From Lentzea tibetensis (GTDB taxonomy: Bacteria > Actinomycetota > Actinomycetes > Mycobacteriales > Pseudonocardiaceae), in assembly GCF_007845675.1 (NCBI RefSeq), contig NZ_VOBR01000011.1, forward strand, positions 203,155 through 267,154: a stretch of 64,000 nucleotides of DNA, in the 5' to 3' direction. The notes beneath the pieces were generated by a model. That model had not been told where the DNA came from. It saw only the letters and a list, made by a program, of their open reading frames with translations, and did not search any database. Position 1 is the first letter of the stretch; each line of letters begins with the position of its first letter. Of this stretch, positions 502 to 15,682 are shown piece after piece. Position numbers and translations under genes: made by a program.

Positions 502-1098
502 ATGACGGGCCTGCGGGAACGCAAGAAGGCGGCAACACGTGCCGCGCTGGCGGACGCCGCGCTCACGCTGTGCGTCGAGCACGGCGTCGACGCGGTGACC
601 GTCGAGCAGGTCGCCACCGCCGCGGGCGTGTCGCTGCGGACGTTCTTCAACTACTTCGCCTCCAAGGAGGAGGCCGTCGTCGCCGGTGACATGGCCACGG
701 CGGGCGCCTTCGTCTCGGCCTTCGCCGCGCGACCGGCCGGCGAGGCCGTGCTGGTCGCGCTCGGCGCGGCGTTGCACGAGGTCATCCCCGAGCACATCGA
801 GCTGTCCCGGCTGCACCAGCTGAGGACGTTGCGCCGCACGCCTTCCCTGCTGCCGCACCTGATGGCCGCCTACGCGGTGCGCGAGCAGGAGCTGGCGGCG
901 GCGATCGCCGCGCGGTCCGGGGTCGACGCCTCCGCCGACCCCTACCCGCAGATGTCCGCCGCCGCCACCATGGCCTCGCTGCGCGCCATCCTCCAGTGGT
1001 GGGTGGACGTGCCGGACGCGATGTCGCGCTACAACTCCGCCGAGCTGATCGACCGGTTGATCGCCCAGCTCGGCGCGGGTTTCACGCGTCCCAGCTGA
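502..1098 (+). CDS. TetR-family transcriptional regulator
   Basis: About 198 residues, the normal TetR length. The N-terminal 60 residues form the HTH: RKKAATRAALADAAL, then GVDAVTVEQVATAAGVSLRTFFNYF, with the FFNYFASKEEAV recognition-helix end typical of the family. The rest is a helical ligand-binding domain without recognisable specificity. ATG 502 is chosen because the protein then begins MTGLRERKKAA, like its relatives; an in-frame GTG at 493 is the alternative and neither has a good Shine-Dalgarno. It lies directly downstream of the exporter gene in the same direction and probably represses it. Its stop is close to the 3' end of the convergent P450 gene (overlap of 17 bp). Confidence 0.85.
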   Translation: MTGLRERKKAATRAALADAALTLCVEHGVDAVTVEQVATAAGVSLRTFFNYFASKEEAVVAGDMATAGAFVSAFAARPAGEAVLVALGAALHEVIPEHIELSRLHQLRTLRRTPSLLPHLMAAYAVREQELAAAIAARSGVDASADPYPQMSAAATMASLRAILQWWVDVPDAMSRYNSAELIDRLIAQLGAGFTRPS

Positions 1099-2332
1099 CC
1101 GGCAGGGAATGCACGCCGAAGACCACCATCGTGTCGCGCGTGGGCACCTGGCGGGCCGGAACGTCCAGTCGCAGCCCCGGCAACCGCCGCAGCAGCTCGG
1201 TGAAGCCGACGGCCATCTCGACCCTCGCCAGCTGCTGCCCGAGGCACTGGTGGATCCCGTGCCCGAACGACAGGTGGTGCCCGCGCGGCCGGTCGACCGC
1301 CAGCGCGCCCGGATCGGGGAACTGCTCGGCGTCCCGGTTGACGGCGGGCACCGAGATGATCACCGTGCTGTCGGCGGGGATCACGACCCCGCCCAGCTCG
1401 ACCTCGGCGGTGGCGAACCGGAACGGTCCCATGTGGATGATCGACAGGTAGCGCAGCAGCTCCTCGACCGCACCCTCGGCGAGTGACGGGTCCGCACGCA
1501 GCTTCGCCAGCTGGTCGGGGTGCTCGAGCAGCGCGAAAGTGCCCAGCCCCAACATGTTCGCGGTCGTCTCGTGCCCCGCGACCAGCAGCAGGTTCGCGAC
1601 ACCGGCGAGCTCGTCGTCGTCGAGGTCGCCGTCCTGGATGAGCCCGGACAGCAGGTCGTCCGCGGGATGCTCGCGCTTCGAGCGCACCAGTCCGATCATG
1701 TACGCGCGCAGCTCGTCGCGGGCCTCGATCAGCTGCTCCAGCGGGGTCTCGAGGTTCAGCAGCTGCGCGGTCCGGTGCTGGAACGAGTCCCGGTCGTCGT
1801 AAGGAACACCGAGCAGCTCGCAGATCACCAGCGACGGCACCGGCAGCGCGAAGTCGCGCACCAGGTCGGCGGGCGGCCCGGCGGCGATCATCGCGTCGAG
1901 CCGGTCGGTGACGATCTCGTGGATGCGCGGCGTGAGCATCCGCATGCGCCGCACGGTGAACTGCCCGGTCAGCAGCCTGCGGTACCGGGTGTGCTCGGGC
2001 GCGTCCATGGCGATGAACCCGCCCGCGCGGGCCTTGGGGGAGAGCAGTTGCTCACGCATCTCCTGGGGCACCCGCGCCAGCAGCCGCGGGTTGCGGAACC
2101 GGTCGGCGCTCATCCTCGGATCGCTGAGCACGGCACGCGCTTCGTCGTGCCCGGTCACCAGCCACACGACCTCGCCGTTCGTGGCGGTGACCTGGTGGAC
2201 GGGGCCGCGTGCGCTGAGGTCGGTCACGCCCGCTGCCGGGTCGAACGGGCAGCCCGTGCGGTCGACCAGCTCGGGCGGCAGCTGCGTGCGCATGCTGTCG
2301 GTGGTGGGGCGTTGCCGGGAAGCCGCGGTCAT
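1082..2332 (-). CDS. Cytochrome P450 (bacterial class I type)
   Basis: A soluble P450 of 416 residues from the ATG at 2332. The I-helix motif AGHETT, the K-helix ExxR (EELLR) and the heme loop FGHGIHQCLG with ligand Cys363 are all present. The frame stays open to 2473, but that would run into the upstream ArsR-rhodanese gene, so the internal ATG (protein MTAASRQRP) is preferred; ATG 2293 (MRTQLPPELV) is also possible. It resembles the CYP105/107-like enzymes common in actinomycete secondary metabolism. No ferredoxin lies beside it. It flanks the dithiolopyrrolone cluster on the left and could be a tailoring enzyme, but no P450 is needed for the holothin core, so it may be unrelated. Confidence 0.88.
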   Translation of the reverse strand: MTAASRQRPTTDSMRTQLPPELVDRTGCPFDPAAGVTDLSARGPVHQVTATNGEVVWLVTGHDEARAVLSDPRMSADRFRNPRLLARVPQEMREQLLSPKARAGGFIAMDAPEHTRYRRLLTGQFTVRRMRMLTPRIHEIVTDRLDAMIAAGPPADLVRDFALPVPSLVICELLGVPYDDRDSFQHRTAQLLNLETPLEQLIEARDELRAYMIGLVRSKREHPADDLLSGLIQDGDLDDDELAGVANLLLVAGHETTANMLGLGTFALLEHPDQLAKLRADPSLAEGAVEELLRYLSIIHMGPFRFATAEVELGGVVIPADSTVIISVPAVNRDAEQFPDPGALAVDRPRGHHLSFGHGIHQCLGQQLARVEMAVGFTELLRRLPGLRLDVPARQVPTRDTMVVFGVHSLPVSWDA

Positions 2333-2430
2333 CGGGCAGTCCTGTTCCCGACCCGGAGTAGTCGGGTCGTAGCTCGGCGTCGTCGACCCCACAGTACTCA
2401 AACTTGCACGACGTGCACTTTCTTTTCCGG

Positions 2431-3096
2431 TCAGCGGATCGGGGACGACAGCGGCTGGCCCGCGAGCTGCCACTCGAGGATGCCGTCGGCCAGCCGCGTG
2501 GCGTGGAACCCGTGCGCGTTGAGCAGTCGCACGGCGTCGTGCGAGAACGAGCAGTAGACGCCCCGGCAGTAGACGACGATCTCCTGGTCCGGCGGCAGTT
2601 CGGACAGACGCGACTCCAGCTCGTCCATCGGGATCGACACGGCCTTCGGGATGTGCGCGGCCTCGTACTCGGACGACGGCCGCACGTCCACGACGATCGC
2701 CTGTCCCGCGCTGACCCGGCGCAGCAACTCGTCGCGGCTGATCTCCTCGGTGTCGTCGGGGCCGAGGTAGCGACGGGCGGCCGCGTCGACCTCGGCCATC
2801 TGGGTCGACGCGACGGTGAGCAGCTGGCCGTACAGGGCGGCGACGGCGTCGGACGCGATGCGGTAGCGGATGGTCGTGCCGTCGCGGGTCGTGGAGACCA
2901 GGCCCGCGTGCTTGAGGGTCTGCAGGTGCGCGGACGTGGTGGTGACGTTCAGCCCGGCCGCCTGCGCCAGTTCGACCACGGCGTACGGGCGCTGGACGAG
3001 CAGGTCGACCAGCTCCAGCCGCTTGCCGTTGCCCAGTGCCTTGCCCACCAGTGCGATCAGTTCGTACAGCGCGGGCCTCAGTCGCCTTTCGGGCAC
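2431..3096 (-). CDS. ArsR-type HTH repressor fused to a rhodanese domain
   Basis: 221 residues from the GTG at 3096, fixed by a perfect AGGAGG six bases upstream; an upstream in-frame TTG (3123) would start inside the operator and lacks a ribosome site. Residues 1-100 form a winged HTH of the ArsR family (AQAAGLNVTTTSAHLQTLKHAGLV as the recognition unit). Residues about 125-215 form a rhodanese domain with the DVRPSSEYEAAHI signature and the active loop CRGVYC, giving Cys177 and Cys182. Fusions of this kind are thought to couple DNA binding to sulfane-sulfur or thiol chemistry. It is divergent from the HlmI-like dithiol oxidase, with a strong dyad between them, so control of that gene and itself by a reactive sulfur signal is the likely job. 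Confidence 0.9.
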   Translation of the reverse strand: MPERRLRPALYELIALVGKALGNGKRLELVDLLVQRPYAVVELAQAAGLNVTTTSAHLQTLKHAGLVSTTRDGTTIRYRIASDAVAALYGQLLTVASTQMAEVDAAARRYLGPDDTEEISRDELLRRVSAGQAIVVDVRPSSEYEAAHIPKAVSIPMDELESRLSELPPDQEIVVYCRGVYCSFSHDAVRLLNAHGFHATRLADGILEWQLAGQPLSSPIR

Positions 3097-3117
3097 CTGT
3101 CGCCTCCTAGGCGATAG

Positions 3118-3135
3118 TTCCAAAGATCTGTGGAA
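3118..3135. promoter_or_regulatory. Palindromic operator between the ArsR-rhodanese and hlmI-like genes
   Basis: The sequence TTCCAAAGATCTGTGGAA is an 18-bp dyad with a single mismatched pair, centred on AGATCT. It lies 22 bp upstream of the GTG of the ArsR-rhodanese gene and 44 bp upstream of the ATG of the divergent flavoprotein. ArsR proteins bind AT-containing imperfect palindromes of about this size overlapping the promoter, so this is the best candidate for the operator that controls both genes. A further TGGAA copy occurs at 3145-3149. Confidence 0.6.
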
Positions 3136-3179
3136 TAGTGTAACTGGAAGGCGGGAAAGTCAATCCGAGAGGGGACGGC

Positions 3180-4079
3180 ATGGGTGACGTGCGCGACGTC
3201 GTGGTGATCGGTGGCGGGGCTGCCGGGTTGAGCGGCGCGCTGCTGCTGGCCAGGGCGCGGCTGCGGGTGACCGTGGTCGACGCGGGCACGCCGCGCAACG
3301 CGCCCGCCGCGCACATGCACGGCTTCCTCTCGCGTGACGGCATGCCGCCCGGCGAGCTGGTCGCGGCCGGACGGGACGAGGTCGCCGCGTACGGCGGTGA
3401 GCTGGTCGACGACGCGGTGACGGAAGTGCTGCCCGGCTTCGAAGTCCGGCTGGCGAGCGGCCGCGTGCTGACCGCGCCGCGGCTCCTGGTGACCACCGGC
3501 ATGCGCGACGAGCTGCCCGGCGTGCCCGGTGTCGCGGAACGCTGGGGGCGCGACGTGCTGCAGTGCCCGTACTGCCACGGCTACGAGGTGCGCGACCAGG
3601 CGCTCGGCGTGCTCGCCACCTCGCCCGCCGCCGTGCACCAGGCGCTGCTCGTGCGGCAGTGGTCGGCCGGCACCTCGTTCTTCGAGCACACCTACGAGCT
3701 GACCGACGCCGAACGCGCCCAGCTCGCCGCGTGGGACATCCGGATCGTGCCGGGCGAGGTCAAGGAGCTCGTCGTCGAGGACGCCGTGCGCGCCGTGCGG
3801 ACCGCGGACGACGAGGTGCCCGTCGACGCGGTGTTCGTCTTCCCCCGGTTCGTGCCCGGCCTGCTCGGCGGACTCGGGCTCGCGACCGACGAACGGGGCT
3901 TCGCGGTCGCGGACGGCAACGGCGCGACGAGCGTGCCCGGCGTGTGGGCGGCGGGCAACGTCGTCAACTCCAGGGCCCAGGTGCTCATGGCCGCGGGCGC
4001 CGGTGCGGCCGCCGCGATGTCCATCCACGCCGATCTCGTGCAGGACCTCACCCGGCGGGCTGTGCAGAACGCCAGCTGA
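3180..4079 (+). CDS. hlmI: Thioredoxin-reductase-like flavoprotein, probable dithiol oxidase (HlmI type)
   Basis: 299 residues, ATG preceded by GAGGGGA. The FAD-binding motif GGGAAGLSG is at the N-terminus, a CPYC redox pair sits at Cys129/Cys132 followed by HGYE, and the second FAD-binding motif is near residues 255-262 (VWAAGNV). The Rossmann segment after the CPYC, GVLATSPAAVHQALL, lacks the GxGxxA expected for NADPH. That combination is typical of the O2-dependent dithiol oxidases HlmI and GliT, which close the disulfide of holomycin and gliotoxin. With the NRPS cluster starting 1.8 kb downstream, the inferred role is oxidation of reduced dithiolopyrrolone to its disulfide, in biosynthesis and self-protection. 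A housekeeping reductase is the alternative. Confidence 0.78.
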   Translation: MGDVRDVVVIGGGAAGLSGALLLARARLRVTVVDAGTPRNAPAAHMHGFLSRDGMPPGELVAAGRDEVAAYGGELVDDAVTEVLPGFEVRLASGRVLTAPRLLVTTGMRDELPGVPGVAERWGRDVLQCPYCHGYEVRDQALGVLATSPAAVHQALLVRQWSAGTSFFEHTYELTDAERAQLAAWDIRIVPGEVKELVVEDAVRAVRTADDEVPVDAVFVFPRFVPGLLGGLGLATDERGFAVADGNGATSVPGVWAAGNVVNSRAQVLMAAGAGAAAAMSIHADLVQDLTRRAVQNAS

Positions 4080-4203
4080 GACGGCTATTGCAGCCACTTT
4101 TCCAAGGCAACGGGAAATATTACCCGGCTATCTGTTAGTGGCTCCCCTAAGACGGCAACTCGTATCCTGTGAGGGGGATTCGGATTGATTCGGGGGACCT
4201 GAA
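4080..4203 (+). promoter_or_regulatory. AT-richer leader and promoter region of the StrR-like regulator
   Basis: This 124-bp interval is clearly less GC-rich than its surroundings. It contains a short inverted repeat CGGG-N8-CCCG around 4111-4126 and a good GGGGGA ribosome site at 4192-4197 serving the TTG start at 4204. No convincing -35/-10 pair of the housekeeping type stands out. It probably carries the promoter of the cluster regulator and any autoregulatory site. Confidence 0.4.
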
Positions 4204-5169
4204 TTGCTTCGGTGCGTTGAGTTCAGCCGGCCGGACGATCCGGATCACGATGAGAATGCGTCCTCGCTTCCTTCGGATAAATGCGTGCTGGTGCCGATAA
4301 GCGAACTGCGGCCTTCTGACTCACCGCGGTTGTCGGGCGAGAGTTGTGCGCACGCGCGCACTCTCGCCGAATCGGACGCCGAGCTGCCGCCGTTGCTCGT
4401 GCACCGGCCGACCATGCGCGTGATCGACGGGATGCACCGGCTCCAAGCGGCGACGCTGCGCGGCGAGCGGGCGGTGCTCGTGCGGTTCTACGACGGCGCC
4501 GCCGCGGACGCGTTCGTCCTCGCCGTCAAGGCGAACGTCGCGCACGGCCTGCCGTTGTCGGTCGCGGACCGCCGGGCGGCCGCGCTGCGCATCATCGCCT
4601 CGCACCCGCAGTGGTCGGACCGGGCGATCGCCGAGGCCACCGGGCTCACCGCGAAGACGATCGGCTCGATCCGCCGGTGCGCAACTGGCGAGGACGCGCA
4701 GTTGCGCACCCGGATCGGCCGTGACGGCAGGGCCCGCCCGCTGAGCAGCTCCGACGGCCGCCTGCGGGCCTGTGCGCTGATGAGGGAGAAACCGGACGCG
4801 TCGCTGCGGCAGATCGCCGGCGAGGCCGGGATCTCGCTGGGGACGGTGCGCGACGTGCGCGACCGGCTCGCGCGCGGTGAGGACCCGGTGCCCCGGCAGC
4901 AGCGGGACCGCCGCCCCGCCGAACCGGTGCAGATGCGGACCGAAGACGTGATGTCGCTGCTCGTGCGGCTCAAACGCGACCCGTCGCTGCGGTTCACCGA
5001 GACCGGCCGTTCGCTCATCCGGCTGCTCAGCCTGCACGCGCTCGGCGAGCGGGAACGCGAGCAGCTGCTCGACTCCGTGCCCGCGCACTGCAGGCGCGTC
5101 GTCGCCGAGCTGGCGCACGCGTGCGCGCAGACGTGGCAGGAGATCGCGGACAAGTTCGAGTGCCGTTAG
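4204..5169 (+). CDS. StrR-family pathway-specific activator (ParB-like fold plus HTH)
   Basis: 321 residues. An in-frame TGA at 4186 limits the gene, and the TTG at 4204 with GGGGGA seven bases upstream is the only well-placed start. Residues about 25-110 form a ParB/sulfiredoxin-like N-domain (LVPISELRPSDSPR, then VIDGMHRLQAATLRG). Two HTH regions follow: WSDRAIAEATGLTAKTIGSIRR and SLRQIAGEAGISLGTVRDVRDR. This is the layout of StrR, NovG and the glycopeptide activators Bbr/Tei15*. It lies between the hlmI-like and hlmF-like genes, so it is probably the cluster activator. Characterised StrR proteins bind long inverted repeats, and I found no exact match to the classical consensus in the nearby promoters. 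A strong hairpin overlaps the stop codon. Confidence 0.88.
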   Translation: MLRCVEFSRPDDPDHDENASSLPSDKCVLVPISELRPSDSPRLSGESCAHARTLAESDAELPPLLVHRPTMRVIDGMHRLQAATLRGERAVLVRFYDGAAADAFVLAVKANVAHGLPLSVADRRAAALRIIASHPQWSDRAIAEATGLTAKTIGSIRRCATGEDAQLRTRIGRDGRARPLSSSDGRLRACALMREKPDASLRQIAGEAGISLGTVRDVRDRLARGEDPVPRQQRDRRPAEPVQMRTEDVMSLLVRLKRDPSLRFTETGRSLIRLLSLHALGEREREQLLDSVPAHCRRVVAELAHACAQTWQEIADKFECR

Positions 5170-5212
5170 GGCACCCTCGCGGCCTTAACGCCGCGAGGGT
5201 GCCCTAACGGCA
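5161..5212. terminator. Bidirectional terminator hairpin between convergent genes
   Basis: A perfect inverted repeat with 22-bp arms (5161-5182 and 5191-5212, extendable by one more pair) closes a loop of 6-8 nt. It begins inside the last codons of the StrR-like gene and ends three bases before the stop of the convergent hlmF-like gene. The right side is followed by TTTC. Its position and symmetry indicate transcription termination in both directions. Confidence 0.85.
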
Positions 5213-5214
5213 TT

Positions 5215-5766
5215 TCAGCTCAGCAGGTCGCCGACGATCTTGGCGACCTCCGCCGGTGACGGCATCGTCGGGTGGTGCGTGACGGTGCCGGAGCCGGGGT
5301 CGTAGCTGTCGTGCCACACCGGCTCCGGCACGTGGCCGCCGTCCGCGCGGATCTGGGCGACGTTGCGCCGCACCGCGGGCTTGGCCCACATCGCCGCGCC
5401 CATCGACGCGAAGTAGACGACCGGGAACGTGGCGGCCAGCACGATCGTCGCCAGCCGGTTCGGCGCCGCCCCGGCCGCGGCGGCCGCGAGGACGTTCGCC
5501 GTCGCGGGCAGGACGACCAGCACGTCGTGGTCCGCCACGAGCCGCGACGGCTTGTCGGTCGGCCAGTCCTCAGGTGACTCACCGCTCACCACTCGTTCGG
5601 CCGAAATCGCGACGGTGGTCGGTGGCAAGAACTGAGCAGCGGTGTGCGTCATAAGGACCGTGTACGTGCCACCCAAATGGCTGCGCATCTCGTTGATGTA
5701 CGTCGGTAAGGCCGTGATGGCGACCGATCCGGTTGCGCCGATCAGGATGCGAGGTGATGTGCTCAT
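5215..5766 (-). CDS. hlmF: Flavin-dependent cysteine decarboxylase-like protein (HlmF; EpiD/PPC-DC family)
   Basis: 183 residues from ATG 5766; an upstream in-frame ATG at 5784 is possible, and neither has a clear ribosome site. The fold is the homo-oligomeric flavin-containing Cys decarboxylase family: N-terminal GATGSVAITALP, the FMN/substrate motif PATAN, and the clamp region ASMGAAMW corresponding to PxMNxxMW. In holomycin biosynthesis HlmF is the lantibiotic-decarboxylase-like enzyme that oxidatively decarboxylates the C-terminal cysteine of the Cys-Cys intermediate to an ene-thiol. Two deviations are visible. The clamp Asn is Gly, and the His expected about 14 residues before PATAN (HIEL in most relatives) appears to be Pro. 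It is transcribed divergently from the NRPS operon. Confidence 0.82.
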   Translation of the reverse strand: MSTSPRILIGATGSVAITALPTYINEMRSHLGGTYTVLMTHTAAQFLPPTTVAISAERVVSGESPEDWPTDKPSRLVADHDVLVVLPATANVLAAAAAGAAPNRLATIVLAATFPVVYFASMGAAMWAKPAVRRNVAQIRADGGHVPEPVWHDSYDPGSGTVTHHPTMPSPAEVAKIVGDLLS

Positions 5767-5904
5767 GCACGAATGGAAATGCATGTGCGTTCAGTTGACA
5801 AGACTGAGCGCTGCTGATGCCATCAGTGGGCGATCGACGATTCGTTCGAGGGGCGAGTGATCGTCGTGCCTGTTTGTTGAAAGCATTCCTGAAAGGTCGG
5901 GGCC
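5767..5904. promoter_or_regulatory. Divergent promoter region between hlmF and the hlmE operon
   Basis: This interval must hold the promoters of both biosynthetic units. Two dyads are visible: GTTCAGT-N7-ACTGAGC at 5789-5809 (6 of 7 pairs) and CTGATG-C-CATCAG at 5814-5826 (perfect 6-bp arms). They are candidates for the StrR-like activator, although neither matches the published GTTCGACTG-type half-site closely. A ribosome site (GAAAGG) precedes the NRPS ATG by about 8 bases. Confidence 0.5.
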
Positions 5905-8900
5905 ATGGATGATCCCTTTGGGCAGTTGATGAATTTCCTGAATTGTCCGGCGGGTTCGGGCCCAGCGGAGAAGCCGGCGGGCGAGCCGTTCGAGCTGACC
6001 GACGTCCAGCACGCCTACCTCGTCGGGCGGCACCGCGGGCTCGAGCTCGGCGGCGTGGCCGCCCACTCGTACTTCGAGTTCGACTGCCCGGAGTTGGACG
6101 TTCCCCGGCTCACCGCCGCGCTGCGGAAGGTCGTCGACCGGCACGACATGCTGCGCGCGGTGATCGACGACGGCCGCCAGCGGGTGCTCGGCCGCGTCCC
6201 CGCCTACGACATCGAGGTCACCGACCTGCGCGGTCGTTGCTACGCGGAGCAGACGGCCGCGCTGGAGCAGGTCCGCGCGGAGCTGGTCGCCGAGGTGCGG
6301 CCGGTCGACCAGTGGCCGCCGTTCGACGTCCGCGCCACGCTGCTCGCGCCCGACCAGGTCCGCCTGCACCTCAGCGTCGATCTGATGTTCATCGACGTCC
6401 GCGGTCTGTTCCTGATGCTGAACGAGTGGCGCAACCACTACGACGACGCCAGCTGTGCGCCCGCGCCGCTCACCACGTCGTTCCGCGACCACGTTGCCGC
6501 GCAACGGGCACAGGACACCTCCCGCGAGGAGCGCTACTGGCTCTCCCGCGTCGACGACCTGCCGCCCGCCCCCGACCTGCCGCTCGCCACCCCCCCCGAA
6601 CGGCTCGGCACGCCGAGCTTCCACCGGTTGAGCACGACCGTCGACAAGGAGCACTGGGCCGCGCTCACCGCCGCCGCGAAGGGCCGCGGCCTGAGCCCGA
6701 ACGCCGTGCTGCTCACCGCGTACTGCGAGGTGCTGCGGACGTGGTCGAAGCGGCCGGACTTCACCGTCACGGTGACCTCGCTCGACCCGCGCGCCGAGGA
6801 CGTGATCGGCGACTTCCTGTCGCTGACCCTCTTCGCCGCCCACGACAACACGGCCGAGACCTTCGAGGACCGCGTCGCCGCGGTGCAGAGCAGGCTGCGC
6901 GACGACCTCGACCACTCCGCGTTCGGTGGCATCGAGGTGCTGCGAGAGCTGGCCCGCAGGCGGGGCGACGGCCGTGGTGTCTCGATGCCGGTCGTCTACT
7001 CGAGCGTGCTCGGCAGCGAGCTGAACGCCAACGCGCTGCGCGTGTTCGGCGAGCTGGTGCGCACCGAGAGCCAGACACCGCAGATCTGGCTGGAGAACCA
7101 GGTCGTCGAGGCGGACTGCGGTCTCACCGTCAACTGGAACTCCGTCGACGGGCTCTTCCCCGACGGCGTGCTCGACGCGATGTTCGCCGAGTACCGGGCG
7201 GTGCTCGACCGGCTGGTCGACGACGAGGACGCGTGGGAGCTGACCGGCAGCCTGGTGCGCCTGCCCGACGCGGACGCCGCCGAGCGGCGCGAGGCCAACG
7301 CGACCGCGAAGGACCTGCCGAAGGTCCGGCTGCACGACCTGGTCGCACGGGCCGCCGCACGCACGCCCGACGCGGTCGCGGTCATCGCGGACGACGTGGA
7401 GGTCACCTACCGGCAGCTCACCGAGGACGCGCACCGCTTGGCACGCGGCCTGGACGGCGAGCCGAACACGCTGGTCGCGGTGTCGATGCGGCCCGGCGCC
7501 CAGCTGTACTCCGCGCTGCTCGGCGTCCTGCACTCCGGCTCCGCGTACGTGTCGATCGACCCGGACCTGCCGGAGCAGCGGCGGCTGGCGCTGCTGAAGC
7601 GGTGCGCGGCGAAGGCCGTGATCACCGAACCGGCGCTGCGCGACGAGCTGACGTGGCCGGATGACATCGCCGTCGTGACGCTCGACGACGTCGCGCACCT
7701 CAGTGCGGAACCCTTGCGGAGCAGCCAAACCGAGGACGACCTAGCGTACGTGATCTTCACGTCCGGCTCGACCGGTGAGCCCAAGGGCGTCATGATCGCC
7801 CACCACGCGGCGGGCAACACGGTGCAGGACATCAACGAGCGGTTCGGCGTCGGTCCGACCGATCGCGTTCTCGCTCTGGCCCCAACGGGTTTCGACCTGT
7901 CGGTGTACGACGTCTTCGGCGTGCTCGGCGCGGGCGGCACCGTGGTGGTCCCGTCGCCGGGCCGGGTCAACGACGTCGACCACTGGACCGAGCTGGTCGC
8001 CCGCCACGGCGTGACGATCTGGAACAGCGTGCCCGCGCCGATGCGGCTGTGGGTCGAGTCGCTCGGCGACGACGCGCCGGACACCGTCCGGCTCGCACTG
8101 CTCAGCGGTGACTGGATCCCGACGAGCCTGCCCGGCCAGATCCACGCCCGGTTCCCGGAGATGGACGTGATCAGCCTCGGCGGCGCGACGGAGTGCTCGA
8201 TCTGGTCGGTGTTCTTCCCGATCGGCGAGGTGCCGCCGGAGTGGCCGAGCATCCCGTACGGCAAACCGCTGTGGAACCAGACGCTGCACGTGCTGAACGA
8301 CCGGCTCGACCCGTGCCCGGCCTGGGTGACCGGCGAGATCTACATCGGCGGCACGGGGGTCGCGCTCGGCTACTGGGCCGACGAGCAGCGCACCGCGGAG
8401 CGGTTCGTCGACGTCGGGGGAGAGCGGCTGTACAAGACCGGCGACCTCGGCCGATACCTGCCCGGCGGCGACATCGAGATCCTCGGCCGCACCGACTTCC
8501 AGGTGAAGATCAACGGTTACCGCGTCGAGCTGGGCGAGATCGAGGCCGCGCTCGACCGTCAGCCGGGCGTCCGGCAGGCGCTCGTCGCGGCACCGGCGCA
8601 CCCGCAGACCGGCCACCGCCAGCTCGCCGCGTACCTCGTGCTCGACGACGAGGTCGACACGACGTTGGTGCGCAAGGCACTCGCCGAGGTCCTGCCGAGC
8701 TACATGGTGCCCAACCACTACGTCACGATCGACGCGCTGCCGCTCACCACCAACGGCAAGATCAACCACGGCGCGCTGCCCGCGCCGTGGAGCGACGGCG
8801 GCGAGGACGAGGAGCGGGTGTCGCCGCGCAGCGACGTCGAGGAACGGCTGCTGCGGATCTGGGCGGCCCAGCTCGGCCACGGCGATCTCGGTGTCGAGGA

Positions 8901-9072
8901 CGGGTTCTTCGACATCGGCGGCGACTCGTTGCACGCCGTCGGCATCCTCAGCCACCTGCGCGCGGAGTTCGGGCTCGACTCGACCGCCGAGCAGCAGGTG
9001 ATCGAGGGGCTGTTCATGAACGCCACCATCGCGGAGTTCGCGGACGTCGTCCGATCGGCCGCCGGGTCATGA
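5905..9072 (+). CDS. hlmE: NRPS module Cy-A-PCP activating cysteine (HlmE)
   Basis: 1055 residues in three domains. Residues about 29-450 are a heterocyclization-type domain: it opens with ELTDVQHAYLVGR and has DxxxxD (Asp159, Asp164) instead of HHxxxDG. Residues about 470-960 are the adenylation domain (core FTSGSTGEPKG). Its specificity residues Asp664, Leu665, Tyr668, Asn707, Leu732, Ser734, Leu758, Ile766, Trp767 and Lys952 spell DLYNLSLIWK, the cysteine code. Residues about 975-1050 are the carrier protein with Ser1008 in GGDSL. There is no thioesterase domain. In holomycin biosynthesis HlmE builds Cys-Cys from a single Cys-loading module, so it must act twice. The next gene overlaps its stop by ATGA. 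Confidence 0.95.
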   Translation: MDDPFGQLMNFLNCPAGSGPAEKPAGEPFELTDVQHAYLVGRHRGLELGGVAAHSYFEFDCPELDVPRLTAALRKVVDRHDMLRAVIDDGRQRVLGRVPAYDIEVTDLRGRCYAEQTAALEQVRAELVAEVRPVDQWPPFDVRATLLAPDQVRLHLSVDLMFIDVRGLFLMLNEWRNHYDDASCAPAPLTTSFRDHVAAQRAQDTSREERYWLSRVDDLPPAPDLPLATPPERLGTPSFHRLSTTVDKEHWAALTAAAKGRGLSPNAVLLTAYCEVLRTWSKRPDFTVTVTSLDPRAEDVIGDFLSLTLFAAHDNTAETFEDRVAAVQSRLRDDLDHSAFGGIEVLRELARRRGDGRGVSMPVVYSSVLGSELNANALRVFGELVRTESQTPQIWLENQVVEADCGLTVNWNSVDGLFPDGVLDAMFAEYRAVLDRLVDDEDAWELTGSLVRLPDADAAERREANATAKDLPKVRLHDLVARAAARTPDAVAVIADDVEVTYRQLTEDAHRLARGLDGEPNTLVAVSMRPGAQLYSALLGVLHSGSAYVSIDPDLPEQRRLALLKRCAAKAVITEPALRDELTWPDDIAVVTLDDVAHLSAEPLRSSQTEDDLAYVIFTSGSTGEPKGVMIAHHAAGNTVQDINERFGVGPTDRVLALAPTGFDLSVYDVFGVLGAGGTVVVPSPGRVNDVDHWTELVARHGVTIWNSVPAPMRLWVESLGDDAPDTVRLALLSGDWIPTSLPGQIHARFPEMDVISLGGATECSIWSVFFPIGEVPPEWPSIPYGKPLWNQTLHVLNDRLDPCPAWVTGEIYIGGTGVALGYWADEQRTAERFVDVGGERLYKTGDLGRYLPGGDIEILGRTDFQVKINGYRVELGEIEAALDRQPGVRQALVAAPAHPQTGHRQLAAYLVLDDEVDTTLVRKALAEVLPSYMVPNHYVTIDALPLTTNGKINHGALPAPWSDGGEDEERVSPRSDVEERLLRIWAAQLGHGDLGVEDGFFDIGGDSLHAVGILSHLRAEFGLDSTAEQQVIEGLFMNATIAEFADVVRSAAGS

Positions 9073-10532
9073 GCACCGAGTACGACGTCGTGGTGGTCGG
9101 GGCAGGCTCGGCGGGCGCGGTCGTGGCGAGCCGTCTCGGCGCGGCGAAACGCGTGCTGCTCATCGAGGCCGGTCCCGACCAGCCCGACCCGAACCCGTTG
9201 CTGGACGGCACGAAACTCCACCTCGACGGCTTCAACTGGGACCACCTCGCGAACCTGCGCACGAAGACCCGGCACAGCTCGCGGGCACTGTGGGGCCGGT
9301 TCCCGTACCGCGTCGGCAAGGTCGTCGGCGGCTCGTCCGCGGTGAACGGCGCGGTCGCGATGCGGGCGCTGCCCAGGGACTTCGACGACTGGGTGAAGCT
9401 CGGCAACCCGGACTGGTCCTGGGAGGCCGTGCAGCCGTTCTACGACCGGGTGCGGCTGCCGATCCGGCGGCCGGACGACCTGCACGAGCTGGAGGTCGCG
9501 TTCCACGACGAGTGCACGCGGATGGGGCTGCCGGACGTGCCGGACCTCAACGACGGCACCGAGTTGGGCGTCGGTCCGGTGCCCGCCAACACGGTCGGCC
9601 GGGAGCGCAGGGACGTCCGCGCGATGTACCTGACCGACGCTGATGTCGAGCTGTGGACCGGATGCGCGGTCACCCGCGTGCTGTTCGACGGCCGGCGCGC
9701 GGTGGGGGTCGAGGTGCGCCGCGACGGGGCCGTCGAGACGGTGCGCGCCCGCGAGGTCGTGCTCAGCGCGGGCGCCATCGGCTCGCCGGTGATCCTGCAA
9801 CGCTCGGGCGTCGGACCGGCGGACGTGCTGGCACGGCTGGGAGTTCGCCCCGTGCGCGAGCTGGCGGGCGTCGGCGAGAACCTCGTCGACCACCCGTCGA
9901 TCGTGATCTGGGCGAAGCCGCGCGACGGGGTGTGCGCTCCGGGTGCGCCGTGGCGGCAGGTCGCGGCCCGCATGTCGAGCGGCGTGCGCGACGACGGCGC
10001 GGACGTGCAGGTGTGGCTGCTGAACAACGTCGAGAGCTCGACCATCCCCGGCTTCGCGAACCGGCTGGGCTGGGACATGGTCGTCGGCATCTCGGTCATG
10101 TTGCTGCGTCCCGAGTCGCGCGGCCGCGTCCACCTCGAGGAGCCGGACGGGAAGCCGGTGATCGAGCTGGGTTTCGGCACCGAGCCGGACGACGTGGAAC
10201 GCCTCGCGCACGGCGTGCGGAAGGCGTGGCGGATCCTGCGCTCACCCGCGTTCGCCGCACGGCTGGAGGACGTCCAGCTGTGGACCGACGCGATGGTCGC
10301 CGACGACACCCTGCTGCGCGGCGCGGTGCGCAACGTGATGAGCCCCGGCTGGCACGCCGTCGGCACCGCGCGGATGGGGCCGGAGACCGACCCGATGGCC
10401 GTTGTCGACCAGCGGTGCCGGGTGCACGGGCTGGACGGGCTGCGGGTGATCGACGCGTCGGTGTTCCCGACGATGCCGAGCGCGCCGACCAACCTGACGA
10501 CGATCATGCTCGCCGAGCGGATGGGGGAGTGA
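9069..10532 (+). CDS. hlmD: GMC-family flavin oxidoreductase (HlmD)
   Basis: 487 residues from the ATG that overlaps the NRPS stop by 4 bp. The N-terminal FAD motif GAGSAGAVVASRL is followed by LIEAGPD and the GMC signature GGSSAVNGAVAMR. The C-terminal catalytic region contains His429 (GWHAVGTARMG) and Asn475 (APTNLTTI), in line with the His/Asn pair of the family. It is one of four flavoenzymes that carry out the multi-electron oxidation converting enzyme-bound Cys-Cys to holothin in the hlm pathway. Its exact step is not settled. Translational coupling to the NRPS suggests that it acts on the carrier-protein-bound intermediate. Confidence 0.9.
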   Translation: MSTEYDVVVVGAGSAGAVVASRLGAAKRVLLIEAGPDQPDPNPLLDGTKLHLDGFNWDHLANLRTKTRHSSRALWGRFPYRVGKVVGGSSAVNGAVAMRALPRDFDDWVKLGNPDWSWEAVQPFYDRVRLPIRRPDDLHELEVAFHDECTRMGLPDVPDLNDGTELGVGPVPANTVGRERRDVRAMYLTDADVELWTGCAVTRVLFDGRRAVGVEVRRDGAVETVRAREVVLSAGAIGSPVILQRSGVGPADVLARLGVRPVRELAGVGENLVDHPSIVIWAKPRDGVCAPGAPWRQVAARMSSGVRDDGADVQVWLLNNVESSTIPGFANRLGWDMVVGISVMLLRPESRGRVHLEEPDGKPVIELGFGTEPDDVERLAHGVRKAWRILRSPAFAARLEDVQLWTDAMVADDTLLRGAVRNVMSPGWHAVGTARMGPETDPMAVVDQRCRVHGLDGLRVIDASVFPTMPSAPTNLTTIMLAERMGE

Positions 10533-10535
10533 GCG

Positions 10536-11222
10536 GTGCGGCTCTACTGCTTTCCGCACGCGGGCGCGACGACGTCCGTCTACCGGCCGTGGCAGGCACC
10601 CGGTGTGCAGGTGGTCGGCGTCGACCGGCCCGGCAGGGGACTGCGGGCACGTGAACCCAAGGTGCTCGACTACCCGGAGGTCGTCGCGTCGACGGCCGAG
10701 TATGTGGCCGCCGATCTCGAGTCCGCGGGCCGCGTGCCGTTCGCGACGTTCGGCCACAGCTTCGGCGCGATGCTCAGCCTCGCCGTCGCCGCCGAGGTCG
10801 AGCGGATCGCCGGCACACCACCGTTGTGCGCCGTCGTGTCGGCGGCACTGCCACCGCGGCTCCAGCCACCCGTCGACGACACGGCGGGGATGAGCGACGC
10901 CGACCTGCTGGACAAGATCGCCGCGGACGGCGGCACGGCGCCGGAGCTGCTGTCGTCACCCGCGATGGCCGGCTTCCTGGTCGGGCTGATGCGCGACGAC
11001 TACGCGGTGCGGCGGCAGTTCCCGCGCGACATCGGCCTGCGCGTCGGCTTTCCGCTGACCATGGTCGCCGCGCGGGACGACGCGCACCTGTCGCCGGAGC
11101 AGATGTGGGCGTGGGCCGAGCACACCACCGGGCCGGTCAGGCGGGTGGAGGTGCCGGGCGGTCACTTCGCGGCCGTCCGCGCACCGGCGGACATGATCTC
11201 GATCGCGTTCGGGGGGAGCTGA
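10536..11222 (+). CDS. hlmC: Type II thioesterase (HlmC)
   Basis: 228 residues from the GTG at 10536, with a GGGGGAG ribosome site inside the preceding gene. It is an alpha/beta hydrolase of the TEII family: it opens with LYCFPHAGATTSVYRPW, has nucleophile Ser75 in GHSFGA, and His210 in GGHF. Such enzymes release or edit carrier-bound intermediates. The NRPS has no integrated thioesterase, so this one either frees the product or clears misloaded carrier protein. It lies three bases after the GMC gene and one base before the acyl-CoA dehydrogenase gene. Confidence 0.9.
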   Translation: MRLYCFPHAGATTSVYRPWQAPGVQVVGVDRPGRGLRAREPKVLDYPEVVASTAEYVAADLESAGRVPFATFGHSFGAMLSLAVAAEVERIAGTPPLCAVVSAALPPRLQPPVDDTAGMSDADLLDKIAADGGTAPELLSSPAMAGFLVGLMRDDYAVRRQFPRDIGLRVGFPLTMVAARDDAHLSPEQMWAWAEHTTGPVRRVEVPGGHFAAVRAPADMISIAFGGS

Positions 11223-11223
11223 C

Positions 11224-12354
11224 GTGGACAACAACCCGTACACCGCATCGCACGAGGACTTCCGGGCGCTGTGCCGCACGTTCCTCGCCCGCGAGGCCGT
11301 TCCGCACCACGCCGAGTGGGAGCACGCGGGCATCATCGGGCACGACCTGTGGGCCAAGGCCGGCGAGGCGGGGCTGCTCGGCATCGACGTGCCCGTCGAG
11401 CACGGCGGGGGAGGTGAGCCGGACTTCCGCTACACCGCGGTGTTCATCGAGGAGCTGGTCCGCGCCCGCGTCACCGTGCCGGGTTTCGTGGCGCACAACG
11501 ACATCCTCTCGTCGTACCTGGCCACCCGCACCACGGCCGACCAGCGGGCGCGGTGGCTGCCCGGCCTGTGCTCGGGCAAGCTCATCGCCGCCATCGCGCT
11601 GAGCGAACCGGACGCGGGCTCGGACCTGTCCGGCATGCGCATGACGGCCGTGCGCGACGGGAACGACTACGTCCTCAACGGGCAGAAGACGTTCATCACC
11701 AACGGAGAGAACGCCGACCTGGTGGTCGTCGCGGCGAAGACGGCGGCCCAGGGCATGAGCCTGTTCGTCGTCGAACGCGGCACGCCCGGCTTCTCGCGCG
11801 GCAGGAGGCTGGAGAAGCTCGGCTGGCAGGCGTGCGACACGAGCGAGCTGTTCTTCGCCGACTGCCGCGTCCCGGCCACGAACCTCGTCGGCAAGGAGAA
11901 CGCCGGACTGGGCTACCTGATGGGCGGCCTGCCGCGGGAACGGCTGTGCATCTCCGCGGTGGCCGTCGCGACCGCGGAGAAGATGCTGGCCGACGCACTC
12001 GCGTACGCGCGTGACCGCAAGGCGTTCGGGCAGGCCATCGGCAGCTTCCAGCACAACAGGTTCCTGCTGGCCACTGTGGACACCGAGGTCACGCTCGCGC
12101 GGGTGTTCCTCAACCACTGCATCGCCGAGCACAACGCCCGGCGCCTCACCGGCACCGACGCGGCGAAGCTCAAGTGGTGGACCACCGAGCTGCAGGTCCA
12201 GGTCGCAGACCGGTGCCTGCAGCTGCACGGCGGCTACGGCTACCTCAAGGAGAGCCCGATCGCCGGGGAGTGGACCAACAGCCGCGTGCAGACGATCTAC
12301 GGCGGCACCACGGAAATCATGAAGGAACTGATCGGCCGGTCGCTCGGCCTGTGA
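11224..12354 (+). CDS. hlmB: Acyl-CoA dehydrogenase-like flavoenzyme (HlmB)
   Basis: 376 residues from a GTG one base after the thioesterase stop. It shows the ACAD signatures ALSEPDAGSDLSGM, GQKTFITNG and QLHGGYGY. The C-terminal position that holds the catalytic Glu in MCAD is Gly here (IYGGTTE). Glu239 in LPRERL matches the alternative base of isovaleryl-CoA-type enzymes and is the probable catalytic residue. In the hlm pathway HlmB performs a desaturation on the thioester-bound dipeptide rather than on a CoA ester. Dense packing within the operon supports that role. Confidence 0.9.
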   Translation: MDNNPYTASHEDFRALCRTFLAREAVPHHAEWEHAGIIGHDLWAKAGEAGLLGIDVPVEHGGGGEPDFRYTAVFIEELVRARVTVPGFVAHNDILSSYLATRTTADQRARWLPGLCSGKLIAAIALSEPDAGSDLSGMRMTAVRDGNDYVLNGQKTFITNGENADLVVVAAKTAAQGMSLFVVERGTPGFSRGRRLEKLGWQACDTSELFFADCRVPATNLVGKENAGLGYLMGGLPRERLCISAVAVATAEKMLADALAYARDRKAFGQAIGSFQHNRFLLATVDTEVTLARVFLNHCIAEHNARRLTGTDAAKLKWWTTELQVQVADRCLQLHGGYGYLKESPIAGEWTNSRVQTIYGGTTEIMKELIGRSLGL

Positions 12355-12367
12355 AGGGAGGCACGCG

Positions 12368-12823
12368 ATGGTTCCCACCGTCTACGAGTGGGCGGGCGGC
12401 GCGGCGGCGTTCGAACGGCTCACCGAGGTGTTCTACGCCAAGGTCGTCGAGGACGACCTGCTCGCACCGCTCTTCCGGTACATGAAGGCCGAGCACCCGC
12501 ACGACGTCGCGGTGATGCTCGGCGAGGTCTTCGGCGGTCCCAGGACCTACACCGAGGAGCACGGCGGCCACCGGCGCCTGCTGAACAAGCACCGCGGCCG
12601 CGACATCCAGCCCGAGCAGCGGGCGCGCTGGGTCGAGCTGATGCTCAGCTCCGCCGACGAGGCCGGCTTCCCGGCCGACCCGGAGTTCCGCGCCGCGTTC
12701 GTCGGCTACCTGGAGTTCGGCTCACGCCGTGCGATGGCGAACTCGAAACCCGGTGCGACACCGAAGGAACGCGACTCGCTCAAGCAGTGGGGCTGGGGCC
12801 AGGCGGCCCCCGGCGCCGAGTGA
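12368..12823 (+). CDS. hlmG: Truncated-hemoglobin-like globin (HlmG)
   Basis: 151 residues, ATG preceded by GAAGGGAGG. It has the group 2 truncated globin features: VYEWAGGAAAFERLTEVFYAKVVEDDLLAPLF, then EHGGHRRLLNKHRGRDI with the proximal histidine region, and a tryptophan-rich C-terminus. Dithiolopyrrolone clusters encode a globin (HlmG) whose function is undefined; supply or scavenging of O2 or NO for the flavin oxidations is a guess. It is 13 bp behind hlmB and 17 bp ahead of the acyltransferase, clearly in the same operon. Confidence 0.9.
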   Translation: MVPTVYEWAGGAAAFERLTEVFYAKVVEDDLLAPLFRYMKAEHPHDVAVMLGEVFGGPRTYTEEHGGHRRLLNKHRGRDIQPEQRARWVELMLSSADEAGFPADPEFRAAFVGYLEFGSRRAMANSKPGATPKERDSLKQWGWGQAAPGAE

Positions 12824-12840
12824 ACACGAGAGGATCCGAG

Positions 12841-13662
12841 ATGGACCTGAAGGTCAGCGTCGCCACGCTCGCCGACTGGCAGCACGCCGTGGCGTGGGCG
12901 AACAACGAGGGCTGGAACATCGGTTACCAGGACGCTGCGTGCTTCCACGCCACCGACCCGGACGGCTTCTTCATCGGCCGCGTCGGCAACCGCCCGGTCG
13001 GCGCCGTCTCGATGGTCAACCACTCCGCGTCGTACTCGTTCTGGGGCAACAACCTCATCGACCCCGAGTTCCGCGGCCACGGGTTCAGCCACGTGCTGAC
13101 GCGCACGTCCCGCGCACACGCAGGTGATCGGCTCGTCGGCGCCGACGGCATGCCGCACCTCGCGGACGGCTACTCGCGCAACCACGGGCTCATCGGCGTC
13201 CACGACACCGTGCACTACATCGGCCGCGCGTCGGGTTCCGTCGGTGACGGAGTGGTGCGCGCGGGCCGCGAGCACCTGGACGCGATCGCGCTGTACGACA
13301 GCACCGCGTTTCCCGCGCACCGGCGGAAGTTCCTGAGCCACTGGCTGTTCGCGCCCGGCCACGAGGCCTACGTGCGCGTCGTCGACGGCTCGGTCACCGG
13401 GTACGGCGTGGTCCGGCCCGCGCCGCTGCGGCACTGCATCGGCCCGCTGGTCGCGTCCACGGCCGAGGACGCGGCGGTGCTGTTCGACGCGCTCACCTCG
13501 GACGTGGACGAGGTGTCCGTGTTCGCGCCGGAGCACGGTGGTGCGTTCCTGGAGGCGCGTGGCCTCAAGGAGGAGTTCCGCGTCCTGCGCATGTACACCG
13601 GGGCTGAGCCTCGGGTGCGGGCGGAGCGGGTGTTCGCGACCGCCAGCCTGGAGCTCGGCTGA
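12841..13662 (+). CDS. hlmA: GNAT acyltransferase, probable holothin N-acyltransferase (HlmA)
   Basis: 273 residues from the ATG at 12841 with GAGAGGA upstream. The N-terminal half is a GNAT domain: FFIGRVGNRPVGAVSMV followed by the acetyl-CoA loop DPEFRGHGFSHVL. The C-terminal half resembles the second GNAT-like domain of two-domain acetyltransferases (VTGYGVVRPA and a C-terminal strand pair). As last gene of the operon it fits the enzyme that acylates the free amine of holothin with an acyl-CoA, which fixes the side chain of the final antibiotic and lowers its toxicity. The acyl group cannot be read from the sequence. It ends 7 bp from the convergent ClpC-like gene. Confidence 0.78.
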   Translation: MDLKVSVATLADWQHAVAWANNEGWNIGYQDAACFHATDPDGFFIGRVGNRPVGAVSMVNHSASYSFWGNNLIDPEFRGHGFSHVLTRTSRAHAGDRLVGADGMPHLADGYSRNHGLIGVHDTVHYIGRASGSVGDGVVRAGREHLDAIALYDSTAFPAHRRKFLSHWLFAPGHEAYVRVVDGSVTGYGVVRPAPLRHCIGPLVASTAEDAAVLFDALTSDVDEVSVFAPEHGGAFLEARGLKEEFRVLRMYTGAEPRVRAERVFATASLELG

Positions 13663-13669
13663 CCCGTGG

Positions 13670-15682
13670 CTACCCGGACTCCGGGCGGTCGGTGATGGTG
13701 AGGACCAGTCCGGAGTCCGCGGCGGTGACGGTGACGTGCTGGCCACCGTGCAGCTCACCGGAGAGCAGTGCGCGCGACAGCAGCCGGTCCAGCTCCCTGC
13801 CGATGGTGCGGCGCAACGGGCGGGCGCCGTGCTCGGGTGCGTAGCCGCGCGCCGCCAACCAGTCGACGGCCTGCTCGTCCACGTCCAGCGTGACGTCCTG
13901 TTCGCGCAGGCGCTGGCGGGTGGAGTCGAGGAGGAGCTCGGTGATCTGGCGCAGCTGGCCCGCGTCCAGTCCGCGGAACAGGAGCACCTCGTCGAGGCGG
14001 TTGAGGAACTCGGGGCGGAAGTAGCGGCGGACGGCGGCCATCAGCCGCTCGCGCAGGTGCTCCACCGGAACACCGGACGTGGCCGCGGCGAGCAGCTGGT
14101 CGGCGCCGATGTTGCTGGTCATGATGATCACCGTGTTGGCGAAGTCGGTGGTGCGCCCCTGCGCGTCCGTGAGCCGCCCGGCGTCCAGCACCTGCAGCAG
14201 TGTGTTGAAGACGTCGCCGTGCGCCTTCTCGATCTCGTCCAGCAGCAGCACCGAGTACGGCGTGCGGCGGACCGCGCCGGTGAGCTGGCCCGCGTCCTCG
14301 TAGCCGACGTATCCCGGTGGCGCGCCGGTCAGCCGGGTCACCGCGTGCTGCTGGGCGAACTCGCTCATGTCGAACCGGATGAGCCGGTCCTGCGAGCCGT
14401 AGAGCGCCTCGGCGAGTGCTCGCGCGACCTCGGTCTTGCCCACCCCGGTCGGGCCGAGGAAGAGGAAGGACCCGATCGGCCGGTGGGGGTGCTTGAGGCC
14501 GGCCCGGCCCTGGCGGACCGCGTCGGCCACCGCCTCGACCGCCTCGTCCTGTCCGACGATCCGCCGGTGCAGGTGGTCCTCCAGGTGCAGCAGCCGGTGC
14601 CGCTCGGCCTCGGTCAGCTGGGCGACCGGGATGCCGGTGCTGCGGGACACGACGTCGGCGACGTCGTGCGGACCGACCTCCGGTGCGTCGGCCACCGCGG
14701 CACGGGCCGCCGCCAGCTCGGCGACCGCGCGGTCGAGTTCGTCGTCGAGCCGGTGCACGTCCTCGCCCTCGGCGGCGAACCTGTCCCGCTCGAGGCGTTT
14801 CACCCGCTGCTCCAGGCGATCCGGGTCCGGTGCCGCGGACTTCTCCCGCAGCCGGACTCGCGCCCCCGCGCGGTCGACGAGGTCGATCGCCTTGTCCGGC
14901 AGGAACCGGTCGGTGACGTAGCGGGCGGACAGCTCCACGGCGGAGACGAGCGCCTCGTCGGTGTAGCGCACGCCGTGGTGCGCCTCGTACCGGTCGCGCA
15001 GGCCGCGGAGGATGGCGATGGTCTCCTCGGTCGACGGCTCGGCGACCACGACCGGCTGGAAACGCCGCTCCAGCGCGGCATCCCTGGCGATGTGCCGCCG
15101 GTAGTCCTCGACCGTGGTCGCCCCGATGACCTGGAGCCTGCCGTCGGTCAGCGCGGGCTTGAGCATGTTCGCGGCGTCCATCGTCGCGCCCTCGGCGCTG
15201 CCCGCGCCCACGACGGTGTGCAGCTCGTCGATGAACAGCACGACCATCCGGTCGGTCGCCACCACCTCGTCGATGACGCCGCGCAGGCGTTCCTCGAACT
15301 CGCCGCGGTACTTCGACCCGGCGACCATGCCCGCCAGATCCAGTGAGATGAGCCGCCGTCCGCTGAGGGTGGCGGGTACCTCGCCGCGCGCCATCCGGGT
15401 GGCGATGCCCTCGACGATGGCGGTCTTGCCCACGCCGGGATCGCCGATCAGGACGGGGTTGTTCTTCGTCCGCCGCGACAGCACCTCGAGCACCTCGTCG
15501 ACGACGTCGTCGCGGCCGACCACGGGATCGAGCAGCCCGTCCCTGGCGGCGGCCGTGAGGTCCCTGCCGAAGTGGTCGGTCCGCCGGGTCGTGGATCGGG
15601 GCTGTCCCAGCTTTCCGAAGAGCTCGCCGACGAGGTCCTCGAGCGAGTTGGATCCGAAACCGAACACCCAGTCGTCCGCCAT
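13670..15682 (-). CDS. ClpC/ClpB-like AAA+ unfoldase without N-domain
   Basis: 670 residues from the ATG at 15682 with AGGAGG nine bases upstream; the frame is open further but that extension has shadow composition. Two AAA+ modules are present. The first has Walker A GDPGVGKT and Walker B FIDELHT; the second has GPTGVGKT and [10 protein letters not shown], and a C-terminal D2-small domain follows. A short coiled linker (about residues 300-360) replaces the long ClpB middle domain. The protein starts directly in a short linker before D1, so the double Clp_N repeat of ClpC/ClpB is missing and the length is about 180 residues below normal. Such proteins are often auxiliary Clp ATPases in actinomycetes, probably with different adaptor use. 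Confidence 0.9.

Follow-up and report, generated by a model that had tools for sequence, protein, structure and literature searches.

A probable dithiolopyrrolone gene cluster of Lentzea tibetensis and its adjoining ArsR-rhodanese and putative dithiol oxidase genes

Gene content of the cluster

Positions 2431–13662 of the DNA analysed here, a 64,000-nucleotide stretch of the Lentzea tibetensis contig NZ_VOBR01000011.1 (the whole stretch is called the window below), very probably constitute a dithiolopyrrolone (DTP) biosynthetic cluster, as judged from its gene set, gene order, motifs and homology, which all agree. The biosynthetic genes are of known type, and the adjoining protection and control genes differ from those of the classic holomycin cluster. 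A sequence-only reading, made without database searches, had proposed a DTP cluster in this interval with eight enzyme families. Gene calls and Pfam recovered all eight in place, so the cluster content of the interval stands, and the ArsR-rhodanese fusion gene at its left end had gone unnamed. The suggested Pseudonocardiales origin is supported as well, the same-family genomes including Saccharothrix algeriensis, Actinokineospora terrae and Actinokineospora globicatena. Genes were predicted with a simple home-made caller, by which some starts were misplaced, and the Pfam scan covered all 21 predicted genes of window positions 2–20530, 4 of the 43 other window genes and 2 of the 17 genes in the 19.5 kb leftward. 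The biosynthetic genes are listed below, with identities to S. algeriensis DSM 44581 (locus L016), the thiomarinol plasmid pTML1 of Pseudoalteromonas (L015) and loci L018 and L081; NRPS is nonribosomal peptide synthetase, with heterocyclisation (Cy), adenylation (A) and peptidyl carrier protein (PCP) domains.

5215–5784, minus strand: PPC-decarboxylase-like flavoprotein, HlmF type (PF02441; 79% to L016, 54% to pTML1)
5905–9072, plus strand: NRPS Cy-A-PCP, HlmE type (Condensation, AMP-binding and PP-binding domains; DLMFID, cysteine code, Cys567, GGDS)
9069–10532, plus strand: GMC-family oxidoreductase, HlmD type (Pfam, homology)
10536–11222, plus strand: thioesterase, HlmC type (Pfam, homology)
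11224–12354, plus strand: acyl-CoA dehydrogenase, HlmB type (Pfam, homology)
12368–12823, plus strand: truncated globin, HlmG type (Pfam, homology)
12841–13662, plus strand: GNAT N-acyltransferase, HlmA/HolE type (PF18014; 55% to L081, 46% to L018, 30% to pTML1)

The six genes from 5905 to 13662 are separated by −4, 3, 1, 13 and 17 bases, which bears out the tight operon described earlier, and the decarboxylase gene is divergent from it. The core reading frames are open with the expected motifs. Neither a free-standing condensation (C) domain nor an N-methyltransferase, both noted before as missing, is present among the 21 predicted genes of 2–20530. The absence of the C domain is no objection, because according to passages of PMC3826145 Yersinia ruckeri produces holomycin without a C domain or an HlmI homologue in its cluster.

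Cysteine specificity of the NRPS

The Cy motif of the NRPS is DLMFID and its carrier site is GGDS. Read by motif anchors, the specificity residues of its A domain are D-L-Y-N-L-S-L-I-W, which we take to be a cysteine code. In passages of PMC10134970, the A domains of DTP NRPSs are described as carrying a special cysteine about 15 residues past the second core motif that is required for loading the second cysteine, and the window NRPS has this extra residue as Cys567. Among the DTP loci introduced below the diagnostic cysteine was found in 34 of the 35 NRPSs with an A-domain match (two of 37 loci gave none). It was found in none of six control A domains, which have Gly (4), Ser or Ala instead; a stricter pattern was applied to the DTP loci and a similar but looser one to the controls, and these are few (14 control loci searched, six A domains matched).

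Comparison with related loci

Relatives were found by scanning a collection of species genomes with an HlmF-like decarboxylase alignment and two short peptide patterns. This gave 37 loci, and the addition of two loci from plasmids and two from family genomes (L081 and L082) brought the number examined to 41; four Gluconacetobacter loci with weak HlmF were dropped, leaving 37 with a strong HlmF-like decarboxylase. The scan may miss clusters, and S. clavuligerus is not among its 37 loci. Each locus extends some 10 kb to both sides of the marker, or less where a contig ends, and absence means absence within that span. The loci were mostly chosen by HlmF, which is therefore not counted as evidence in co-occurrence, and related species were counted singly.

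In 34 of the 37 strong-HlmF loci, including those of S. algeriensis and pTML1, the NRPS, GMC, thioesterase and acyl-CoA dehydrogenase genes are also present. Individually, NRPS and GMC genes occur in 35 loci each, thioesterase and acyl-CoA dehydrogenase genes in 34 each, globin in 31 and GNAT in 12; a thioredoxin reductase (TrxR)-like gene was found in 22, an ArsR-rhodanese gene in seven and the helix-turn-helix (HTH) regulator gene in four. Passages of PMC12982422, which compares DTP clusters, name the NRPS, thioesterase and acyl-CoA dehydrogenase as common to them, and a thiolutin cluster has been published for S. algeriensis NRRL B-24137 (PMC10134970, seen in passages). Identity to the DSM 44581 locus is 79% for the decarboxylase, 78% for the acyl-CoA dehydrogenase, 77% for the globin, 69% for the GMC protein, 64% for the NRPS and 56% for the thioesterase. 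It had been suggested that flavoenzymes best matched to unrelated pathways would speak against a DTP cluster; this was not what was seen, since the decarboxylase, acyl-CoA dehydrogenase and GMC protein match those of the S. algeriensis cluster at the identities just given, and the best solved match of the TrxR-like protein was 4ntd. When plasmid records were searched at the protein level, the top three listed were Streptomyces finlayi (62%), Streptomyces sp. NBC_01435 (49%) and pTML1 (44%); the annotated records of S. finlayi and pTML1 have the same neighbour genes, and the NBC_01435 gene set is not of DTP type.

The NBC_01435 plasmid bears on another explanation, in which the NRPS/GMC pair of the window would belong to a different cysteine pathway that merely resembles the DTP pathway. 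Its locus L014 (10836–19702) has two NRPS matches (49% and 40%) and a GMC match (49%) with no decarboxylase, acyl-CoA dehydrogenase or globin match, and apparently represents a related but distinct pathway. However, its two A domains have Gly and Ala at the place of Cys567, which is present in the window, and the window decarboxylase, acyl-CoA dehydrogenase and globin are 77–79% identical to those of S. algeriensis, making this explanation highly improbable.

Some loci carry only parts of the gene set. The DTP locus of Photorhabdus asymbiotica (L046, 1305–10531) seems incomplete, with the NRPS match in two pieces, a short GMC match, and the thioesterase and acyl-CoA dehydrogenase not matched. 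HlmF-like decarboxylases of about 45–54% identity occur in 11 family genomes (L070–L080) with no other window-type gene within 3.4–3.5 kb. Two of these 11 were examined over 19.5 kb (L083 and L084) and still showed no window-type gene; L084 holds MFS, AraC-type, luciferase-like and molybdopterin genes.

Putative dithiol oxidase, ArsR-rhodanese regulator and putative operator

To the left of the decarboxylase gene lie the protection and control features. FAD is flavin adenine dinucleotide, and L017 and L026 are A. terrae and A. globicatena.

2431–3096, minus strand: ArsR-rhodanese fusion regulator (PF01022 and PF00581; 71–73% to L016, L017 and L026 by tblastn)
3116–3140, minus strand: predicted operator TATTCCA-N8-TGGAA in the gap that separates the ArsR-rhodanese gene from the divergent TrxR-like gene (32.3 bits)
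3180–4079, plus strand: putative HlmI-like FAD dithiol oxidase paralogue with CPYC, of the ArsR-rhodanese-linked clade (structure matches, tree)
4095–4119, plus strand: possible second, weak operator ahead of the HTH regulator gene (20.9 bits, 3 mismatches)
4204–5169, plus strand: HTH regulator (HTH_23; 66–70% to L016, L017, L026 and L082; start uncertain, TTG 4204 or GTG 4399)

Among solved structures the TrxR-like protein matches 4ntd best (E 3.6e-89), which we take to be HlmI, followed by DepH 4nte (8.8e-43) and GliT 4ntc (2.3e-21). It is 54% identical to 4ntd over the aligned region and 68% identical to the Actinokineospora copies. It has the CPYC motif but neither HRR nor a second GxGxxA where NADPH would usually bind. 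A 33-sequence tree with a midpoint root groups the protein with two Actinokineospora copies (99/98), whose genes are also divergent to ArsR-rhodanese genes; under the same root, a sister clade of 24 (95/96) holds 4ntd plus the other cluster copies. Moreover, the Actinokineospora clusters carry both kinds of TrxR, one at each end. Thus the earlier assignment of an HlmI-type oxidase holds for CPYC and the relationship to 4ntd but not for orthology, the enzyme being a paralogue from the sister clade; by its motif it may nevertheless work like HlmI. Elsewhere in this genome, on a different contig (L061, G000:C61, 6388–7942), an XRE-cupin regulator gene is divergent to another TrxR-like gene, which in the tree falls with further copies of the genus; this regulator is 56–65% identical to those of DTP loci, and genome G024 (L058) has an equal pair with similar neighbours.

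The ArsR-rhodanese gene and the TrxR-like gene are divergent and 83 bases apart. The regulator has only two cysteines, Cys177 and Cys182, both in the rhodanese loop, and its ArsR domain is cysteine-free. Both residues are invariant in 13 aligned copies; they are not DTP-specific, because two of the 13 adjoin genes of metallo-beta-lactamase (MBL) type. The palindrome TATTCCA-N8-TGGAA or a near variant lies upstream of actinobacterial ArsR-rhodanese copies, and it was not seen in the upstream regions of the three proteobacterial ones. With a matrix built from nine sites in eight other loci, not all of them linked to DTP genes, the site at 3116–3140 scored 32.3 bits, while 20 shuffles preserving base composition only gave 20.5 at best and 15.1 next. 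The genome has five exact TTCCA-N8-TGGAA sites versus one for a reversed-pattern control, and the cluster site alone is outside predicted genes. The candidate at 4095–4119 (20.9 bits versus a best shuffle of 20.5) has no counterpart in L016, L017, L026 or L082, and is at most a weak second operator.

The seven DTP loci with an ArsR-rhodanese gene come from four bacterial classes. They comprise four of five Pseudonocardiaceae loci, three of 11 from Proteobacteria (Chromobacterium, Xaviernesmea and Photorhabdus asymbiotica) and none of the 21 from Streptomyces and Actinomadura. The neighbouring protection gene varies, being TrxR-like in the window, L017 and L026, MFS in L081, L045 and L046, and DUF2938 in L081, L044 and L045. 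Orientation to the regulator gene is mixed, divergent in some and convergent in others, and pTML1 has DUF2938 without ArsR-rhodanese. In a survey of 391 Pseudonocardiaceae genomes, an HlmF match at E 1e-30 was found in 17 and reached at least 65% identity in six; in five of these six (not L082) the ArsR-rhodanese gene lies inside the cluster. The eight best ArsR-rhodanese places in the family are those five, a second S. algeriensis copy, and places in genomes G351 and G197.

In a more far-reaching reading, which we consider somewhat unlikely, the ArsR-rhodanese protein would serve the cluster as a dedicated sensor that responds to the dithiol form of the antibiotic itself, or to persulfides that it raises, and the enzyme under its control would represent a second, separate subfamily of protection enzymes that close disulfides. 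Recruitment of such sensors to DTP clusters would then have happened repeatedly, in Actinomycetes as well as in Alpha-, Beta- and Gammaproteobacteria, beside different protection genes (oxidase, MFS or DUF2938). We rate this reading slightly lower because the palindrome was unseen in the proteobacterial loci. ArsR-type regulators of persulfide or sulfane sulfur are the subject of published work. Such a cue, whether dithiol or sulfur, is made plausible by Pseudomonas aeruginosa, in which, according to passages of PMC11317636, zinc disturbance by gliotoxin induces a dithiol oxidase that oxidises reduced holomycin. In titles and abstract starts of the papers listed on dithiolopyrrolone with rhodanese and holomycin with ArsR, no such regulator was apparent; section 19 and passages of PMC12982422 do not mention ArsR or rhodanese, and passages of PMC3826145 report that a rhodanese-like gene alters holomycin output in S. 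clavuligerus.

Alternatively, the ArsR-rhodanese/TrxR-like pair would be a general sulfur-stress module beside the cluster, which would then lack a dithiol oxidase of its own, like the clusters of Y. ruckeri and pTML1. Among 13 further ArsR-rhodanese copies (L103–L115; 62–67% identity), neighbours were checked for 11; all 11 adjoin a gene with below-cutoff MBL-fold matches, in 10 together with rhodanese-type matches, which seems to be a sulfur-stress setting. The two of them with upstream DNA examined (L105 and L106) have the same palindrome, which is thus not DTP-specific, and S. algeriensis has ArsR-rhodanese but no TrxR match in the 20.5 kb examined. On the other hand, the nearest tree neighbours of the window oxidase are the Actinokineospora copies linked to clusters, followed by the HlmI clade, rather than copies of its own genus (midpoint root), and in L017 and L026 the pair keeps its position by the HTH and decarboxylase genes. 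We consider this alternative unlikely.

Two further settings of the regulator gene were observed. The second S. algeriensis copy (L097, G116, 926–3581) lies with a DUF2938 gene and a methyltransferase gene, the latter a candidate for the thiolutin N-methyltransferase; its product shares 73% identity with the first 70 residues of a methyltransferase whose gene is cut off at the end of L081. In L100 and L101 the gene adjoins an MFS gene 71–77% identical to those of two Streptomyces DTP loci, and the genomes concerned have no HlmF match at E 1e-30; stand-alone DTP resistance and other export are both possible. Relatives of this type of MFS occur in 125 of the 391 genomes, and the one in L081 passes the cutoff for a Cmx/CmrA chloramphenicol exporter.

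Likely product

On the question of holomycin or thiolutin type, a GNAT gene is present, and no methyltransferase was seen among the 21 scanned genes. The earlier suggestion of a holothin core acylated by the GNAT enzyme fits the predicted gene set, and the product is likely to be an N-acylated holothin, either holomycin itself or a compound with another acyl group. A sequence search of the PDB with the GNAT protein gave no match. The L081 GNAT, 55% identical to that of the window, adjoins an AMP-binding ligase gene. For two methyltransferases encoded close to DTP genes, the best hits in the own genome are distant ones, of 41% and 34–38% identity, and such a gene may lie elsewhere.

It is also conceivable, though somewhat unlikely, that the cluster is intact but silent, or that it yields unacylated or differently acylated holothin. 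The GNAT is divergent, no cluster-type MFS was found, and among the matches listed no other genome of the genus has an HlmF match at E 1e-30, all of which would fit such an outcome; the open core frames and expected motifs argue against decay, but say nothing on expression.

Several points weigh against the overall interpretation given here. Ser replaces the diagnostic cysteine in the NRPS of Streptomyces humicola (L020, 6463–9741), and 140 of the 391 family genomes match ArsR-rhodanese at E 1e-30, many in another setting. The GNAT is only 30% identical to HolE of pTML1, and a search for a cluster-type MFS elsewhere in the genome gave distant matches only (33% with one internal stop, 34% without), none of them at E 1e-80.

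HTH regulator and cluster borders

The HTH regulator is perhaps ParB/StrR-like, by impression; it has no ParB-domain match, its PDB sequence search was empty, and its AlphaFold2 model is poor (mean pLDDT 64, pTM 0.33, 4 sequences). An MFS-TetR-P450 block ending at 2332 was considered as a source of transporter and tailoring genes and rejected, being syntenic (83, 81 and 75%) in G024, which has no HlmF match; because of this synteny the left border is placed between 2332 and 2431. On the right, a Clp-like gene starting at 13670 is conserved at 82–86% in 19 of 24 other genomes of the genus. Of four same-genus stretches checked for an empty site, three have the Clp-like gene without other window genes and the fourth has the left block alone, and they gave no reconstruction of the insertion. 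The own genome is alone in the genus in having an HlmF match at E 1e-30 among the matches listed, at least 20 other genomes of the genus being without one.

Proposed mechanism

The enzyme steps proposed here are taken by analogy from published work on relatives. The single Cy-A-PCP NRPS would take two cysteines, one on its carrier protein and one on Cys567 of the A domain, and would join both without a separate C domain. The acyl-CoA dehydrogenase and the Cy domain would then form the bicycle, the thioesterase would release it, and the GMC oxidoreductase and the PPC-type decarboxylase would finish holothin, which the GNAT would acylate if the cluster is indeed productive. The TrxR-like oxidase may close or re-close the disulfide and so shield the cell. 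From the shared predicted operator, a conserved palindrome, the ArsR-rhodanese protein probably represses both its own gene and the oxidase gene, and we infer that it would release DNA once a sulfur or dithiol signal has reacted with the cysteines of its rhodanese domain.

The window adds a compact DTP cluster, with an acyltransferase of uncertain specificity, in a genus without another listed HlmF carrier. The cluster itself is of known type, and the ArsR-rhodanese/second-oxidase module is the part of most interest, as it makes a self-protection circuit testable: a putative sulfur-reactive repressor, a predicted operator and a predicted dithiol oxidase from the sister group of HlmI.

Comparison with known systems

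The S. algeriensis locus resembles the window in having the NRPS, GMC, thioesterase, acyl-CoA dehydrogenase and globin genes in equal order, a divergent decarboxylase gene, and HTH and ArsR-rhodanese genes (64–79%, thioesterase 56%). Unlike the window, it has no GNAT or TrxR match within the examined 20.5 kb, and its far end additionally holds genes for an XRE-cupin regulator and a DAO-type oxidoreductase. The two Actinokineospora loci are like the window in arrangement, including the ArsR-rhodanese gene divergent to the TrxR-like gene (68%), but lack a GNAT match; they also carry a TrxR of the HlmI clade together with an XRE-type regulator, and an MFS gene lies 2.5–2.9 kb past the end of the stretch examined. 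In pTML1 the pyrrothine genes follow the order NRPS-GMC-thioesterase-acyl-CoA dehydrogenase, then GNAT, globin and decarboxylase, with identities of 30–57% to the window and no TrxR-like or ArsR-rhodanese match within the 26 kb examined. With the hlm cluster of S. clavuligerus, as described in passages of PMC3826145, the window has in common the functions HlmA–HlmG plus an HlmI-like enzyme. HlmH (MFS), HlmJ (a second thioesterase) and HlmK (C domain) of that cluster have no counterpart found in the window, and the TrxR-like protein of the window is not the HlmI orthologue.

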